From the NCBI RefSeq assembly GCF_040362765.1, contig NZ_BAABWK010000002.1, forward strand, positions 372,001-436,000: a stretch of 64,000 nucleotides of DNA. The letters run 5' to 3'. The notes beneath the pieces are model-generated. The model saw nothing but the letters and a program-made list of their open reading frames with translations. It ran no database searches and was not told the origin of the DNA. The position numbers and the translations under genes are program-made. Source of the stretch: Pyruvatibacter sp. HU-CL02332. Its GTDB lineage: Bacteria > Pseudomonadota > Alphaproteobacteria > CGMCC-115125. Positions 19,239-25,623 of the stretch are shown in pieces (positions within the stretch are counted from its first letter, which is position 1; the number at the start of each line of letters is the position of its first letter).

Positions 19239-20897
19239 ATGGGGAAGAAGATCGTTCTGGGGGTTGTGGCCGCAGCTATTGTTCTGGGCGGCCTTGCCTA
19301 TCTCATGCGCGTGGACATCATTTTGTATCTTGCGACGAACACCGGCAAGATTGATGTCGCACCCCATCAGGAAATCAGCTGGAAATCAGCCGACCCGGAG
19401 CGGGCGAGCAAGGCTGCTGCGGGCGCGCCCAATATCGTCTTCATCCTGGCTGATGATCTGGGCATCAACGACATCTCCACCTATGGCGGCGGCATGAATG
19501 GTGGTGCCTTCAAGACACCTCACATTGATCGACTGGCAACTGAGGGCGCCAACTTCACTCAGGCTTACGCAGGGACGGGCACCTGTGCACCATCGCGCGC
19601 CATGCTCATGACCGGGCGTTATCCATCACGCACAGGCTTTGAGTTCACTCCCACGCCGGATGGAATGGCCGATGTCGTCGGAATAGTTTCCGCAAGCATG
19701 GATAGTGGCTTGCCAGACGCCTACGTGCCCGACAGATCCGGCACGCCAGAACTCACTTACCAGGAAAAGGGCCTGCCAGGGTCTGAACTGACGGTTGCAG
19801 AAGTCCTCCAGGAGGCCGGATACCACACCGTCCATATCGGCAAGTGGCACCTGGGGCGCGGTGAAGAATTCGACGCCACGTCTCAGGGCTTCGATGAAAG
19901 CCTGTTGATGGCCAGCGGTCTGTTCCTGCCTGAGGATGATCCCAATGTGGTCAATGCCAAGCTTGATTTTGACCCCATCGACAAATTCCTGTGGGCCCGC
20001 ATGCAATATGCCGCGAGCTACAACGGCAGCGAATGGTTTGAGCCGGGTGGCTACCTGACAGACTACTGGACCCAGGAAGCTCAGAAGGTTATCCGCGCCA
20101 ACAAGGATAATCCGTTCTTCCTGTATCTCGCCCATTGGGGCATCCACACACCGCTGCAGGCCACCAAGGAAGACTACGAAGCTGTAGGTGACATCCAGCC
20201 CCATCGCGCACGGGTGTATGCGGCCATGATGCGCGCGGTCGACCGCAGCGTCGGTGATATCATTCAGACGCTGGAAGAAGAGGGGATTGCCGACAACACG
20301 ATTATCGTCTTTTCCAGCGACAATGGCGGTGCCGGGTATATCGGCATTCCGGACGTCAATGCACCGTATCGCGGCTGGAAGATCACTCTGTTTGAAGGCG
20401 GCATCCGTGTGCCAATGCTCATGCGCTGGCCGAACCGGATTCCCGCCGGGACTGAAATCGAGTCACCCGTCGCCCACATTGATGTGATGCCGACACTTGT
20501 CGCTGCAGGCGAGGGCACAATCCCTGACACCATCGAGATTGATGGCAAGGACCTGCTGCCGCTGGCAACCGGTACGTCTACGGAAGATCCGCACGAAGCC
20601 ATTTTCTGGACCAGCGGCTACTACCGCGTTGTGCGTGCAGGTGATTGGAAGCTGCAGGTATCAGAACGACCGAACAAGGCGTGGCTGTTCAATCTTGCCA
20701 GCGATCCGACCGAGCAGACCAACGTGGCTGAGGCCAATCCTGATGTGGTCAGCAGACTGACGGCCTTGCTGGATGCGCATAGCGCCGGTTCACGTCCGCC
20801 GCTCTATCCACATCAGGCAGAGTTCCCGGTTGCTGTCGACAAGACACGGGCCGAGCGGTTTGAAGACGGGGATGAGGTCATCTACTGGCCGAACTGA
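19239..20897 (+). CDS. Membrane-anchored sulfatase (arylsulfatase type)
   Basis: The 552-residue protein has an N-terminal hydrophobic span (residues about 5-24) without an obvious cleavage site, so it is probably tethered to the inner membrane with its catalytic domain in the periplasm. The type I sulfatase motif 'CAPSR' (Cys116) with following 'AMLMTGRYPSRTG' marks the Cys converted to formylglycine. 'IVFILADDLGIND' gives the metal-binding Asp pair (72-73), and 'HIGKWHLG' and 'VFSSDNGG' are further active-site motifs. It hydrolyses a sulfate ester of unknown nature. The ATG at 19239 has AGGTGG just upstream; a GTG three codons earlier is the alternative. The converging neighbour encodes a formylglycine-generating enzyme, its likely activator. 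Confidence 0.93.
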   Translation: MGKKIVLGVVAAAIVLGGLAYLMRVDIILYLATNTGKIDVAPHQEISWKSADPERASKAAAGAPNIVFILADDLGINDISTYGGGMNGGAFKTPHIDRLATEGANFTQAYAGTGTCAPSRAMLMTGRYPSRTGFEFTPTPDGMADVVGIVSASMDSGLPDAYVPDRSGTPELTYQEKGLPGSELTVAEVLQEAGYHTVHIGKWHLGRGEEFDATSQGFDESLLMASGLFLPEDDPNVVNAKLDFDPIDKFLWARMQYAASYNGSEWFEPGGYLTDYWTQEAQKVIRANKDNPFFLYLAHWGIHTPLQATKEDYEAVGDIQPHRARVYAAMMRAVDRSVGDIIQTLEEEGIADNTIIVFSSDNGGAGYIGIPDVNAPYRGWKITLFEGGIRVPMLMRWPNRIPAGTEIESPVAHIDVMPTLVAAGEGTIPDTIEIDGKDLLPLATGTSTEDPHEAIFWTSGYYRVVRAGDWKLQVSERPNKAWLFNLASDPTEQTNVAEANPDVVSRLTALLDAHSAGSRPPLYPHQAEFPVAVDKTRAERFEDGDEVIYWPN

Positions 20898-20904
20898 TCG
20901 ACTG

Positions 20905-21819
20905 CTATCCGTCCCGGATAACCCGAAAGCCGATGTGGTTGGTTGAAAAATCAACCTCCGACGGCTGTCGGGCCTCGGGACGGTAGCGACGGCAGAAATT
21001 GTCCGCGCACAGGTATGACCCGCCTTTGATGGTCTGCGTTCCGTCCGCATAGGGTGTGTCGGTGAGTTCCCACACATTGCCGATCATGTCGTAGACGCCA
21101 TTTTGATCGGCTGGGAAACAGCCAACGGGCGACGCTCCGGAGAACCCGTCCTCGGCCTGGTCAAAGAAGGGAAAGACCCCTTGCCACGTATTGGCGCGTG
21201 GCTTGCCGGTTTCATCATATGCGCCGGATGTCGTTACATTCTGGTCGGGCAGGCCGCTGGACGCTGCAAACTCCCACTCTTCTTCCGTGGGTAGTCGGGC
21301 ACCGGCCCATTTTGCATAGGCTTGCGCGTCCGCGAGAGACACATGAACAACCGGGTGATTGTCCAGACCTTCTATGGATGAATCTGGACCGTTAGGTTTC
21401 TGCCACGTTGCACCGGGTATCAGCCGCCATGGATTGCCAGTCATGCTTCCATCCACGATCCGCTCAAACACCGCAGACCCTGCACCGGTCCGCCCGGCGG
21501 CGATGTCACGTTCAGCAGTTGTTTCATAGTTCGTCGCGTCAACGAATGCCGCAAACTGCGCGTTGGTGACCTCGTGCGTTTGAATGTCAAATCCCACAAC
21601 GTGCAGACGAAGACCCAGTTTTTCCTCCGGGTAGACAGCGTTCCTGCCTTTGATAAATGAGCCCGAGGGAATTGATGCAAAGCTGCCAATGCGATCTGTC
21701 GTCAGGCCGCACGAGGCCGCGTTGGTCGCCGTTGGGCCGTTACCTTCAGCTGACGTCGCTGTGCGCTCATCGCATGCTGCAAGCGCACCAATCAGTGACA
21801 GGAGGATGACGAAACGCAT
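20905..21819 (-). CDS. Formylglycine-generating enzyme-like lipoprotein
   Basis: The 304-residue protein starts with a lipoprotein signal, 'LIGALAAC' (Cys16), then a linker and the FGE-sulfatase domain from about residue 45: 'SIPSGSFIKG', 'DIQTHEVTNAQFAAFVDATN', 'HPVVHVSLADAQAYAKWAGA', 'RLPTEEEWEFAA', 'NVWELTDTPY', and the C-terminal active-site segment 'GGSYLCADNFCRRYRPEAR' with Cys271 and Cys276. These match the two catalytic, copper-binding Cys of aerobic FGE, so it should oxidise the sulfatase Cys to formylglycine. The lipoprotein signal implies action outside the cytoplasm, unlike the cytoplasmic bacterial FGEs known to me. The stop lies 8 bases from the converging sulfatase stop, and the start directly abuts the TetR stop. 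Confidence 0.88.
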   Translation of the reverse strand: MRFVILLSLIGALAACDERTATSAEGNGPTATNAASCGLTTDRIGSFASIPSGSFIKGRNAVYPEEKLGLRLHVVGFDIQTHEVTNAQFAAFVDATNYETTAERDIAAGRTGAGSAVFERIVDGSMTGNPWRLIPGATWQKPNGPDSSIEGLDNHPVVHVSLADAQAYAKWAGARLPTEEEWEFAASSGLPDQNVTTSGAYDETGKPRANTWQGVFPFFDQAEDGFSGASPVGCFPADQNGVYDMIGNVWELTDTPYADGTQTIKGGSYLCADNFCRRYRPEARQPSEVDFSTNHIGFRVIRDG

Positions 21820-22452
21820 TTACGCTGCCACCAGTTTCTCAACACTGAACCGAATTGCCTTTTCAGCCTGCTTGGCAGTGAGTTCCTGATCCTGCCGCAA
21901 CCGCCTCCATGCATTGAAGCCTGTGAGCATCTCCAGCGCCGCAAAAAGCGTTTTGTCAGACTTGATGTGGCTGGGGAGAACGCCGGCCAGACCTTCGCGC
22001 TCCATGGTCAGGAAACGCTGGTAGTCCTGCATCAGATATTCGGACCTGAAACGACGCAGCCCTGCGCATGTCTTGATGGGCATGATGCGCTCGTAAACAT
22101 TCACACGCCGATCAATCATCTCAGAAAGGCGCCCCTGCCAGGTAGATGCCGTGAAAGGCTGACTAACGATGGGAAGAATTTCTGCTTCCATCTGGGCAGA
22201 CATTTCCCGGTAGAGGCTGTCTACATCGTCGAAGTGTCGGAACACGGTTCGAATGCCGACCTTTGCCTCCTCGGCGAGGGTTGCCGCGCTTGGATCCATC
22301 TCGCCGCCCCGGATGACCGAGAACATAGCCGCTACAATTTTTGCGCGGCTTCGCTCACTGCGCTGCCGGCGTCCATCACCTTGCCCAGCCACTTCAGTGG
22401 AGGCTGGTTCTGTAGATTTGGATACAGCGTTGGAGTGTGACTTTGGCGCCAT
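21820..22452 (-). CDS. TetR family regulator of the sulfatase/RND locus
   Basis: The 210-residue protein has a Ser/Lys-rich N-terminal arm of about 30 residues and then a TetR helix-turn-helix: 'KIVAAMFSVIRGGEMDPSAA' followed by 'TLAEEAKVGIRTVFRHFDDVDSLY'. The rest is helical. Its stop is immediately followed by the start of the FGE-like gene (no gap), so the two are one transcript. Its promoter (TTGACG/TAGGTT, minus strand) contains the same 11-mer as the sulfatase promoter, which suggests autoregulation and control of the sulfatase. The effector is unknown. Confidence 0.87.
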   Translation of the reverse strand: MAPKSHSNAVSKSTEPASTEVAGQGDGRRQRSERSRAKIVAAMFSVIRGGEMDPSAATLAEEAKVGIRTVFRHFDDVDSLYREMSAQMEAEILPIVSQPFTASTWQGRLSEMIDRRVNVYERIMPIKTCAGLRRFRSEYLMQDYQRFLTMEREGLAGVLPSHIKSDKTLFAALEMLTGFNAWRRLRQDQELTAKQAEKAIRFSVEKLVAA

Positions 22453-22548: not shown

Positions 22549-25500
22549 CTATGCGTGACTGCGCTCATCATCGGTTATGCCAAAGAAGATAGCGTAGAGG
22601 GCGGGGACGATGATGAGCGTCAGGAGTGTCGCGAAGCTGAGGCCAAAGACCAGAACCACCGCCATCGCCGCAAAGAACGGGTCCATGAAGAGCGGCAGAA
22701 CACCAAGCACTGTCGTCAAAGACCCCATCATGACCGGCCGCACGCGGCTGGCCGCACTGTCGATAACAGCATCATGTCGAGGTTTGCCCTCACGTATCTC
22801 CAGGTCCATCTGGTCCACGAGCACAATGGCATTCTTGATCAAGAGCCCCGACAGGGACAACACACCGAGGATGGCCATGAACTCCATGGCGCTGTTGGTG
22901 ACCAGCAAACCAATCACCACACCGATGATAGACAGCGGTACAACGAGCCAGATGAGGAGCGGCTGACGGATCGCGTTGAAGAGGATGATGACAGTCAGGA
23001 CCATGGCTGCAAGGCCGATAGGCAACGTCGATGCAAGATTGCCGTTGGCTTCCGTGCTGTCCCCATACTCGCCGCGCCACGTCAACGTGTATCCCGGTGG
23101 CAAGGCAATGGCCTCGATTTGTCCGCGGATACGGTCAAAGGCGACAGACGCCAATTCAGAGGGCAGGGGGTCTGCCTGTGCTTTGATTGTCCACACACGA
23201 TCAAGACGGCGGAGCTGCGCATCTCGCCAAATGGAATTCACACCCTCCACGACTTCGATGAGTGGAACCGTGTTGCCAGTTGTCGCGCTTGGAATCTGAA
23301 TACCCGGCAGACCGGAAACGCCGGTGCGTTCCGCTTCGGGCGCGCGCGCGATGATGGGGATCAGTTCATCTCCTTCACGATATACGCCAATGTCGCGTCC
23401 TGAGTAATTGGACCTCAGTGCTGCGGCCAGATCCTCTCGGGAGACACCCAGCCGGCGACCGCTGGTTTCGGAGTAAATCGGTTCGAGGACAGACACAGGC
23501 TGGCGCCAGTCTTCCTTTATGGAAATGAGGTTGCCGTCTTGCGCAAATATATCTGTGGCCTCACCGGCAAGACGGCGCAGCACAACTGGGTCAGGGCCTG
23601 AAAACTCCGCCTGAATGGCCGACCCGCCGCCTGGACCAAGCTTGAAGCGCCAGACTTTTCCCTGGGCATCGGGGTAGTTGTTGTCCACGTAGGATTGAAT
23701 GTCGGGGATCAAAGTTTCAATCAGCGAGTAGTCCGAGACCCGGACGAGCAACTGTCCATAGGCGCTGTTGTAGGACTCCGGCGGATACACAAGCATGTAG
23801 CGAAGACCGCCCTGACCGACATAGGTCGTAACGCTCTCGACACCGTCCAGTTGCGCCACCGCCTGCTCCAGTCGGCGCATGTCAGCGTCTGTACGATCAA
23901 TGTCCGTGCCTTCGGTCAGCCAGTAATCGACAACTAGCTGAGGCGTCGTCGAGCTTGGGAAAAAGCCGGACTTTGTGAACTGAAATGCCCAGACAGACAC
24001 AACGAACATTCCAATGGCTATGCCAACAACTCCCCAACGTGCGGCCAGCACGCGCCGCATGAAGCTCTTGTAGGTCCGCGAAAACTTGCCTTCCGGTGGC
24101 GTGTGTCCGGCTGCAGCGGTGTTCTCTTTGAACAGAAGGTCTGCCAGCAAGGGCACTGCGGTAATGGCAAAGACCCAGCTGTAGAGCAGGGAGATCAGCA
24201 CCACCCAGAACAAGTGGCCGGTATATTCTGCTGTGCTACCCGGCGCGAAGCCGATGGGGGCAAAAGCAATGATGCCGACAATGGTGCCGCCCAGAAGCGG
24301 CCACCAGGTGCGGGTCACAATATCCTTGGCAACTTCGAGTTTCTTGCGCCCTTGCTGCACACCAACAAGGATACCCTCAGTAACAACAATGGCGTTGTCC
24401 ACCAGCATGCCCAGTGCAATGATCAATGCGCCCAATGAGATGCGGTGCATGGGAATATCAACCAGATACATGGTGCCAAGTGTGGCGGCGATCGTCAGCA
24501 GCAGGACGGCGCCGATCACGACAGCCGATTTGAGGCCCATGAAAATAAGCAGCGTGATCAAAACGATGACCAGAGCCATGACCACGTTGACCACAAAGTC
24601 CTGCACCGCCTTCTCGACGATAGTGCCCTGATGATAGTACTGATGAATCTCCACGCCGATCGGACGACGGGATTCCTCTGCCGCAAAGGCTGCATCTATG
24701 CCCTTGGCCATTTTCACGACATTTGCGCCGGTCACATTTGAAATGCCAAGGCCCAACGCAGGCTGACCGTTGTGACGCAGGATAAACGTCTGCGGGTCTT
24801 TCAGCTCACGTCGAACCGTTGCGATGTCACGCAGATAGACCACGCCGGATGTGTCCGAACCGCTGGATGAACTTGTTGAAACGATGACGTTTTCAATTGC
24901 CGCGACGGAGTCGATATCTCCCGTAGGAAGAATGTTCAGGCGTAGATCGCCAACACGCACACTGCCTGCCGAGACAACAGAGTTCTGCTTGGCAAGATCG
25001 TTGTAAACCTGATCAACCGAGACGCCGAGGGCCGCAGCGCGGTCTCTGGAAATCTCCACATAAATGGCCTCAGACTGAACCCCGGTGATCGCTACTTTTG
25101 CAACGTCATCCACTGCCAGAAGATCCGCACGCAGACCTTTTACATACTCATGTAGTTCCTTGGCCGTGTAGCCTTCGCCGGTCACGAAGTAGTAGAGGCC
25201 ATAGACGTCGCCGAAGTCGTCATTGGTGAGAGGTGCCAATGCACCGGGGGGCAGACTGCCGACTGCATCATCCACCTTGTTGCGCAGTTTGCCCCAGATG
25301 ATCTGCAGATCCTCCTTGCTGGGGGAAAACTCGAACTTGATTTCGACCGTTATCCGCGAAACACCAAAGCTGGATTCAGACGTAATCTCGTCGACTTCCT
25401 GCAGCTGCTGAATGGCACTTTCCAGCGGTTCGGTGACTTCATTTGCAACTTCTTCCGGGGTCGCACCGGGATATTGCGTGACGACGACAGCCTGCCGAAT

Positions 25501-25623
25501 GGTGAATTCCGGGTCCTCGAAACGCGGCATGTTTTCGTAGGCGGTCCAGCCTCCAAACAGCGCAATCAGGATAATGATCACGCTGATGAGGCGGTTCTTG
25601 ATGGCAAATTCAGCAGGATGCAT
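22549..25623 (-). CDS. RND family efflux transporter, inner-membrane permease
   Basis: The 1024-residue protein has the RND architecture: one N-terminal span, a large periplasmic loop, a block of spans (about residues 335-540), a second periplasmic loop and a final block of spans (about 860-1015). Typical segments are 'TQYPGATPEEVANEVTEPLE', 'LGMLVDNAIVVTEGI' and 'VLSLSGLLIKNAIVLVDQMD'. The 'FEDPEFTIRQAVVVTQYPGA' start is typical of the less studied proton-driven HAE-type pumps related to VexF/MdtB. It exports small amphiphiles with the adaptor encoded just upstream (12-base gap). No outer-membrane channel gene is nearby, so a shared TolC is likely. Confidence 0.93.
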   Translation of the reverse strand: MHPAEFAIKNRLISVIIILIALFGGWTAYENMPRFEDPEFTIRQAVVVTQYPGATPEEVANEVTEPLESAIQQLQEVDEITSESSFGVSRITVEIKFEFSPSKEDLQIIWGKLRNKVDDAVGSLPPGALAPLTNDDFGDVYGLYYFVTGEGYTAKELHEYVKGLRADLLAVDDVAKVAITGVQSEAIYVEISRDRAAALGVSVDQVYNDLAKQNSVVSAGSVRVGDLRLNILPTGDIDSVAAIENVIVSTSSSSGSDTSGVVYLRDIATVRRELKDPQTFILRHNGQPALGLGISNVTGANVVKMAKGIDAAFAAEESRRPIGVEIHQYYHQGTIVEKAVQDFVVNVVMALVIVLITLLIFMGLKSAVVIGAVLLLTIAATLGTMYLVDIPMHRISLGALIIALGMLVDNAIVVTEGILVGVQQGRKKLEVAKDIVTRTWWPLLGGTIVGIIAFAPIGFAPGSTAEYTGHLFWVVLISLLYSWVFAITAVPLLADLLFKENTAAAGHTPPEGKFSRTYKSFMRRVLAARWGVVGIAIGMFVVSVWAFQFTKSGFFPSSTTPQLVVDYWLTEGTDIDRTDADMRRLEQAVAQLDGVESVTTYVGQGGLRYMLVYPPESYNSAYGQLLVRVSDYSLIETLIPDIQSYVDNNYPDAQGKVWRFKLGPGGGSAIQAEFSGPDPVVLRRLAGEATDIFAQDGNLISIKEDWRQPVSVLEPIYSETSGRRLGVSREDLAAALRSNYSGRDIGVYREGDELIPIIARAPEAERTGVSGLPGIQIPSATTGNTVPLIEVVEGVNSIWRDAQLRRLDRVWTIKAQADPLPSELASVAFDRIRGQIEAIALPPGYTLTWRGEYGDSTEANGNLASTLPIGLAAMVLTVIILFNAIRQPLLIWLVVPLSIIGVVIGLLVTNSAMEFMAILGVLSLSGLLIKNAIVLVDQMDLEIREGKPRHDAVIDSAASRVRPVMMGSLTTVLGVLPLFMDPFFAAMAVVLVFGLSFATLLTLIIVPALYAIFFGITDDERSHA

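Follow-up and report, generated by a model that had tools for sequence, protein, structure and literature searches.

A predicted lipoprotein formylglycine-generating enzyme and a converging Sec-type sulfatase point to sulfatase activation outside the bacterial cytoplasm

Bacterial formylglycine-generating enzymes (FGEs) are known as cytoplasmic proteins, and the location stated for the prokaryotic enzyme in the literature is indeed the cytosol (PMC4505483). Cys-type sulfatases are typically cytosolic and Ser-type sulfatases periplasmic (PMC3920027). A gene pair of Pyruvatibacter sp. HU-CL02332 raises the question of whether these rules are general. Within the window, by which we mean the whole 64,000-nucleotide stretch of DNA that was analysed, the gene for an FGE-like protein with a lipobox converges on the gene for a sulfatase with a hydrophobic N-terminus, and the original prediction proposed that the sulfatase is activated by its partner in the periplasm. 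Here, we ask whether the FGE is a true enzyme, whether it is exported, and whether Sec-exported sulfatases could be its substrates. The gene boundaries and the residues singled out in that prediction (Cys16, Cys116, Cys271 and Cys276) proved right on the sequence, and the locus comprises the following features:

19239..20897, plus strand: membrane-anchored Cys-type sulfatase, 552 aa, probable substrate (PF00884, E 3.6e-57)
19239..19310, plus strand: N-terminal hydrophobic anchor of the sulfatase, Sec-type, without twin arginine (hydropathy; anchor in relatives)
19584..19586, plus strand: codon of Cys116 in the CAPSR motif, formylglycine precursor (sequence)
20905..21819, minus strand: predicted exported lipoprotein FGE, 304 aa (PF03781, E 2.5e-58; AlphaFold; Foldseek)
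21772..21819, minus strand: lipoprotein signal sequence with lipobox LAAC; Cys16 codon at 21772-21774, followed by Asp17 (sequence; relatives L043 and L052)
21709..21711, minus strand: Cys37 in the stalk, proposed to take part in a structural disulfide (Cys pattern of the exported FGEs)
21118..21120, minus strand: Cys234 in SPVGCF, proposed disulfide partner of Cys37 in the core (Cys pattern, alignment)
20992..21009, minus strand: predicted catalytic copper-site residues Cys271 (21007-21009) and Cys276 (20992-20994) (alignment; solved FGEs)
21820..22452, minus strand: TetR-like regulator, directly upstream of the FGE gene (N-terminal sequence)

The product of 20905-21819 contains a full-length FGE-sulfatase domain (positions 7-255 of 255 of the Pfam model PF03781, E 2.5e-58). 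Its active-site motif, GGSYLCADNFC, supplies C271 and C276, which align in sequence searches with the catalytic pair of solved FGEs and which, together with the surrounding GGS, L and R284, are invariant in an alignment of 70 sequences. The solved proteins nearest to it by sequence search are the FGEs of T. curvata, S. coelicolor and human, and an AlphaFold model based on the 70-sequence alignment (pLDDT 90.8, pTM 0.85) has human FGE (1z70) as its top Foldseek match (E 3.4e-26). The bacterial FGEs of Streptomyces coelicolor (6muj) and Thermomonospora curvata (6s07) have the same fold and catalytic Cys pair and can be aligned with it over the whole domain; human FGE (SUMF1; 1z70, 2aii) likewise shares its fold and active site. 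By sequence and fold the protein is a true, complete FGE of the catalytic type, and it would be expected to be active.

The enzyme begins with a textbook lipoprotein signal, MRFVILLSLIGALAAC16DERT, in which LAAC16 matches the lipobox pattern [LVI][ASTVI][GAS]C after a hydrophobic stretch, as originally predicted. This signal cannot be trimmed by choosing another start, because the next in-frame ATG, GTG or TTG after codon 1 is codon 75, which sits inside the enzyme fold. The protein has five cysteines: C16, which would carry the lipid; C37 and C234, a probable disulfide; and C271 and C276, the predicted copper site.

The converging gene encodes a type I (S1) Cys-type sulfatase, assigned from a PF00884 domain together with CAPSR (C-x-P-S/T/A-R) at C116, the sole cysteine among its 552 residues and the one at which we infer formylglycine to be formed. 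Its nearest solved relative is the exo-4S-kappa-carrageenan S1 sulfatase 6prm (E 2.6e-79). The N-terminal span that had been described as uncleaved-looking is a single, strongly hydrophobic segment (hydropathy 3.15 over 11 residues), an anchor that is kept in relatives. Seven bases lie between the stop codons of the two genes. Upstream of the FGE gene, an RND-type efflux pump (window 22549-25623) and the TetR-like gene occupy the same strand, and a membrane-fusion-like gene lies beyond the pump; the RND-TetR-FGE order is kept in L014, and the TetR-like and FGE genes have the same order in L014 and L043. The TetR-like product has no Pfam match at 1e-3. Its TAA abuts the ATG of the FGE gene, so the two genes are probably co-transcribed, with the FGE gene probably closing a transcription unit that is read from the RND-pump side.

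The genome that hosts the pair (3.45 Mb, 3 contigs, 100% complete) contains three FGE-family genes: the lipoprotein FGE; L003, called EgtB-like from its N-terminal extension and genomic neighbour; and L002. The last of these (1399-2280) encodes a secreted FGE-fold protein that lacks the catalytic Cys pair and is nearest to PvdO, though far below the cut-off of the PvdO model. A search of the genome for a second catalytic FGE found none, nor was an anSME found in it; the latter (TIGR03942) also makes formylglycine in bacterial sulfatases and is a radical SAM enzyme unrelated to FGE. Inactive exported relatives such as L002 raise the possibility that the lipoprotein FGE itself is no longer active and has a structural or binding role instead. 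PorK/GldK also carries the FGE fold on exported lipoproteins, without the catalytic cysteines and with a structural role in type IX secretion (PMC12421860). The protein described here nevertheless retains both cysteines that PorK/GldK and L002 lack, within the invariant GGS.LC/R284 context of the 70 sequences, and it matches solved active FGEs better than PorK; its score against the GldK model is 59.9, the cut-off being 350. It is also linked to Cys-type sulfatases and is the only catalytic-type FGE of its genome, and we regard a loss of activity as very improbable.

Absence of another maturase is the rule in genomes of this kind. The exported FGE was the sole catalytic FGE in 34 of the 38 other genomes that carry one, in a scan in which catalytic-type matches (>180 bits) were clearly apart from the rest (<125 bits), and no anSME (TIGR03942) exceeded the cut-off in any of 45 genomes (0/45), although many of the scanned genomes are metagenome assemblies, for which absence of a maturase is less firm. 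In G063 (L159), the Hellea FGE match in the whole-genome copy has one internal TGA; for L057, the same Hellea gene, the chosen start is TTG.

The lipobox and the convergent gene pair both recur in L043 (93% FGE identity), L053 (59%), L055, L218 and L220, and for this reason their occurrence here is more than chance. Both are also kept in L052 (Candidatus Phaeomarinobacter), whose FGE is about 70% identical and is separated from the convergent sulfatase gene by a small gene. Among three congeners, two have the lipobox; in the third (G001), the FGE is divergent and carries another signal sequence, and its gene shares an operon with a sulfatase of the same type. The two non-catalytic cysteines of a congener's divergent FGE (L044, 3705-4595, minus strand) lie in YC.W and GFRC contexts, which resemble those of two cysteines of human FGE, and its signal contains TRRRALAG and might be Tat. 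Outside the genus, the anchors of exported FGEs vary (lipobox, membrane segment or plain signal peptide), and the gene often adjoins the same or another sulfatase. The Asp that follows the lipid cysteine is not shared by all relatives. Export of the FGE is conserved while its form varies. The pairing that had been read from the convergence of the genes is borne out by this recurrence; the idea that the two proteins are exclusively dedicated to each other is not, as the genome encodes four further Sec-type Cys sulfatases besides 19239-20897, and because of these the FGE probably serves all Sec-type Cys sulfatases of the genome.

We examined how far the exported type extends with FGEs gathered in one collection scan and in 387 evenly sampled alphaproteobacterial genomes, classing their N-termini by a rule that combines hydropathy with the lipobox pattern (a heuristic based on hydropathy rather than SignalP). 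This yielded 62 exported FGEs, 30 called by lipobox and 32 by another signal or anchor. By tally, the exported type is present in about 26 of the 36 alphaproteobacterial genomes in which a catalytic FGE occurs; several congeners are among those sampled. On a tree of 125 FGE cores without their N-termini, built by a quick method with SH-aLRT support only, the export label requires 2 changes as compared with a shuffled mean of 41.1; these label counts leave out L214 and L215, whose starts are unreadable, and the doubtful L074, and take L228 as cytosolic. Since label and tree use different parts of the protein, their agreement validates the export rule. The exported FGEs of Proteobacteria form a group (52 rows, 95*) whose sister is a cytosolic group (51 rows, 98*), and cyanobacterial and Bacteroidota/Verrucomicrobia exported groups fall outside this pair. 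Judged from these sequences, exported FGEs appear to be a widespread bacterial branch rather than a single case. Human FGE groups with actinobacterial cytosolic FGEs on the tree, not with the exported branch; descent of human SUMF1 from the exported branch was considered and is unsupported by this one quick tree, which includes no origin test. Near the actinobacterial and human FGEs lies a cytosolic subgroup (L051, L224, L225 and L228) with an N-terminal CC motif (MADKACCAPP, MTEKKSCCAPQ, MTCCPSR and KKTCCTPARG) that might bind copper; three of these FGEs adjoin cytosolic CxPxR sulfatases.

The cysteine content of the exported enzymes differs sharply from that of the cytosolic ones. Leaving aside the catalytic pair and the lipid cysteine, exactly two cysteines are present in 53 of 61 exported FGEs as compared with 1 of 56 cytosolic FGEs, most of which carry 3 to 8. 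In Proteobacteria one cysteine of the pair is in the stalk (C37 here) and the other in the core, within PVGC[FY] (C234 here), a combination found in 49 exported and 0 cytosolic FGEs. Four cyanobacterial exported FGEs also have two cysteines but at a different core position, and the pair must therefore have been placed at least twice. Fisher p values for this pattern are inflated by kinship; the independent placements do not depend on them. Selection in an oxidising compartment favours an even number of cysteines and the loss of free ones, and a C37-C234 disulfide is probable.

These patterns bear on the alternative that the hydrophobic N-terminus is a mispredicted start or a non-exporting anchor, with the catalytic domain facing the cytosol. 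Two points speak in its favor: the literature places known bacterial FGEs in the cytosol (PMC4505483), and the cytosolic sulfatases of this genome would need a cytosolic maturase. The gene has no start codon between codons 1 and 75, however, and the lipobox and two-cysteine pattern are common to dozens of relatives and absent from the cytosolic clade. We consider a cytosolic orientation of the catalytic domain extremely improbable.

An FGE outside the cytoplasm should be matched by the export routes of its substrates. Since Sec moves unfolded chains, an enzyme on the far side of the membrane can still modify its substrates, whereas Tat moves folded proteins, and Tat substrates are therefore matured before export. 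When the nearest sulfatase within 1.5 kb was taken as linked, raw automatic calls gave 23 Sec, 2 twin-arginine (RR) and 3 cytosolic sulfatases beside exported FGEs, and 7 cytosolic, 6 RR and 6 Sec beside cytosolic FGEs. Two of the latter 6 Sec calls (L096 and L098) are Tat signals shortened by start choice, and two more (L214 and L215) adjoin FGEs with unreadable starts, which the tree places in the exported branch. A single cysteine is present in most Sec sulfatases that adjoin exported FGEs. In the genomes G045 and G275, which have both FGE types, the partner of the exported FGE is a Sec sulfatase, and that of the cytosolic FGE is a twin-arginine (Tat) sulfatase. Genome-wide, the Cys-type sulfatases of 9 exported-only genomes were 27 Sec, 3 Tat and 14 cytosolic, and those of 7 cytosolic-only genomes were 3 Sec, 2 Tat and 30 cytosolic (Sec versus other, Fisher p = 1.4e-6, not corrected for kinship).

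A strict rule, by which exported-only genomes would have Sec sulfatases only, failed: 14 of their 44 Cys-type sulfatases are called cytosolic and 3 Tat. These proteins count against the extracytoplasmic route, as an FGE outside the cytoplasm should not reach them before they fold. Among the 14 cytosolic calls, L263 and L276 look like start-site artefacts, and 8 carry CMPAR. The cytosolic CMPAR sulfatase-family proteins comprise L010 (1495-3048) and L012 (1483-3012) in the Pyruvatibacter genome, where L008 is the third Cys-type sulfatase outside the Sec group, and L275, L277, L278, L280, L282 and L283 in further exported-only genomes. The remaining cytosolic Cys-type sulfatases need another maturation activity, or work differently.

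It could accordingly be argued that some other cytosolic activity matures all sulfatases here and that the exported FGE acts on another exported protein. The presence of cytosolic Cys-type sulfatases in exported-only genomes that lack a known cytosolic maturase fits this idea, and FGE-independent formylglycine formation has reportedly been seen in E. coli. Against it stand the tight linkage of exported FGEs to Sec sulfatases with CxPxR, often the only cysteine of the protein, and the excess of Sec sulfatases in exported-only genomes. We hold this reading to be highly improbable.

Activation of sulfatases in the periplasm, as put forward in the original prediction, is supported by these results: the lipobox persists in close orthologues, neither a second catalytic FGE nor an anSME is present in the genome, and the route may extend to the whole exported branch. 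We consider it highly probable that an FGE working outside the cytoplasm matures Sec-exported sulfatases by a route like that of the endoplasmic reticulum (ER). The enzyme would exit through Sec and be lipidated at Cys16, remaining membrane-held and facing the periplasm. In E. coli, Asp after the lipid cysteine is a signal for inner-membrane retention; Asp at +2 suggests the same location here by that rule, which is not established for this group, and would place the FGE close to where the sulfatase emerges. Copper would be bound by Cys271 and Cys276 in the periplasm, and a Cys37-Cys234 disulfide would pin the fold. With O2, the enzyme would then oxidise Cys116 of the sulfatase to formylglycine as the chain emerges unfolded, and probably also the motif cysteines of the four other Sec-exported sulfatases. 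It counts against this model that neither a copper chaperone nor a disulfide reductase recurred in a Pfam scan of 100 neighbours of exported FGEs, in which thioredoxin occurred in 2 and sulfatase in 5.

This arrangement resembles that of human FGE, which modifies chains beyond the cytosol as they pass into the secretory pathway and has a structural disulfide, as proposed for the enzyme described here, although the human protein resides in the ER and its disulfides are differently placed. As compared with the prokaryotic FGEs represented by 6muj and 6s07, stated to be cytosolic (PMC4505483), the enzyme of the window stands out by its lipobox and C37/C234 pair; its predicted anchor sets it apart from characterised bacterial FGEs, and its compartment and disulfide would do so too. 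A cytosolic location does not fit a protein with this lipobox, with no start before codon 75 and with the Cys pattern of an oxidising compartment. Such a location is a stated property of known bacterial FGEs and not a requirement of the family, the human enzyme being in the ER. No periplasmic or lipoprotein FGE was found in the full-text literature searched, which covers few subscription journals. We lean toward a broader scheme in which Gram-negative bacteria have two matched routes, a cytosolic FGE for cytosolic and Tat sulfatases and an extracytoplasmic copper FGE for Sec sulfatases, the latter ER-like but located on other branches of the family, its disulfides having been positioned on at least two independent occasions.

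A large exported branch of FGEs would overturn two general rules, that prokaryotic FGE is cytosolic and that Cys-type sulfatases are cytosolic, and would explain how Sec-exported sulfatases could mature after translocation. Copper enzymes are normally loaded in the extracytoplasmic compartment, and export would put this copper enzyme there. It also bears on the question of the physiological reductant of FGE, which is unidentified (PMC12123546), because the thiols of the cytosol are not simply available to an extracytoplasmic enzyme. In biotechnology, the branch may be a source of FGEs that are by nature suited to an oxidising compartment and could be used to aldehyde-tag secreted proteins. Finally, Pyruvatibacter itself appears to complete the maturation of its exported sulfatases beyond the cytoplasm, with a membrane-anchored version of the copper enzyme of the animal ER.
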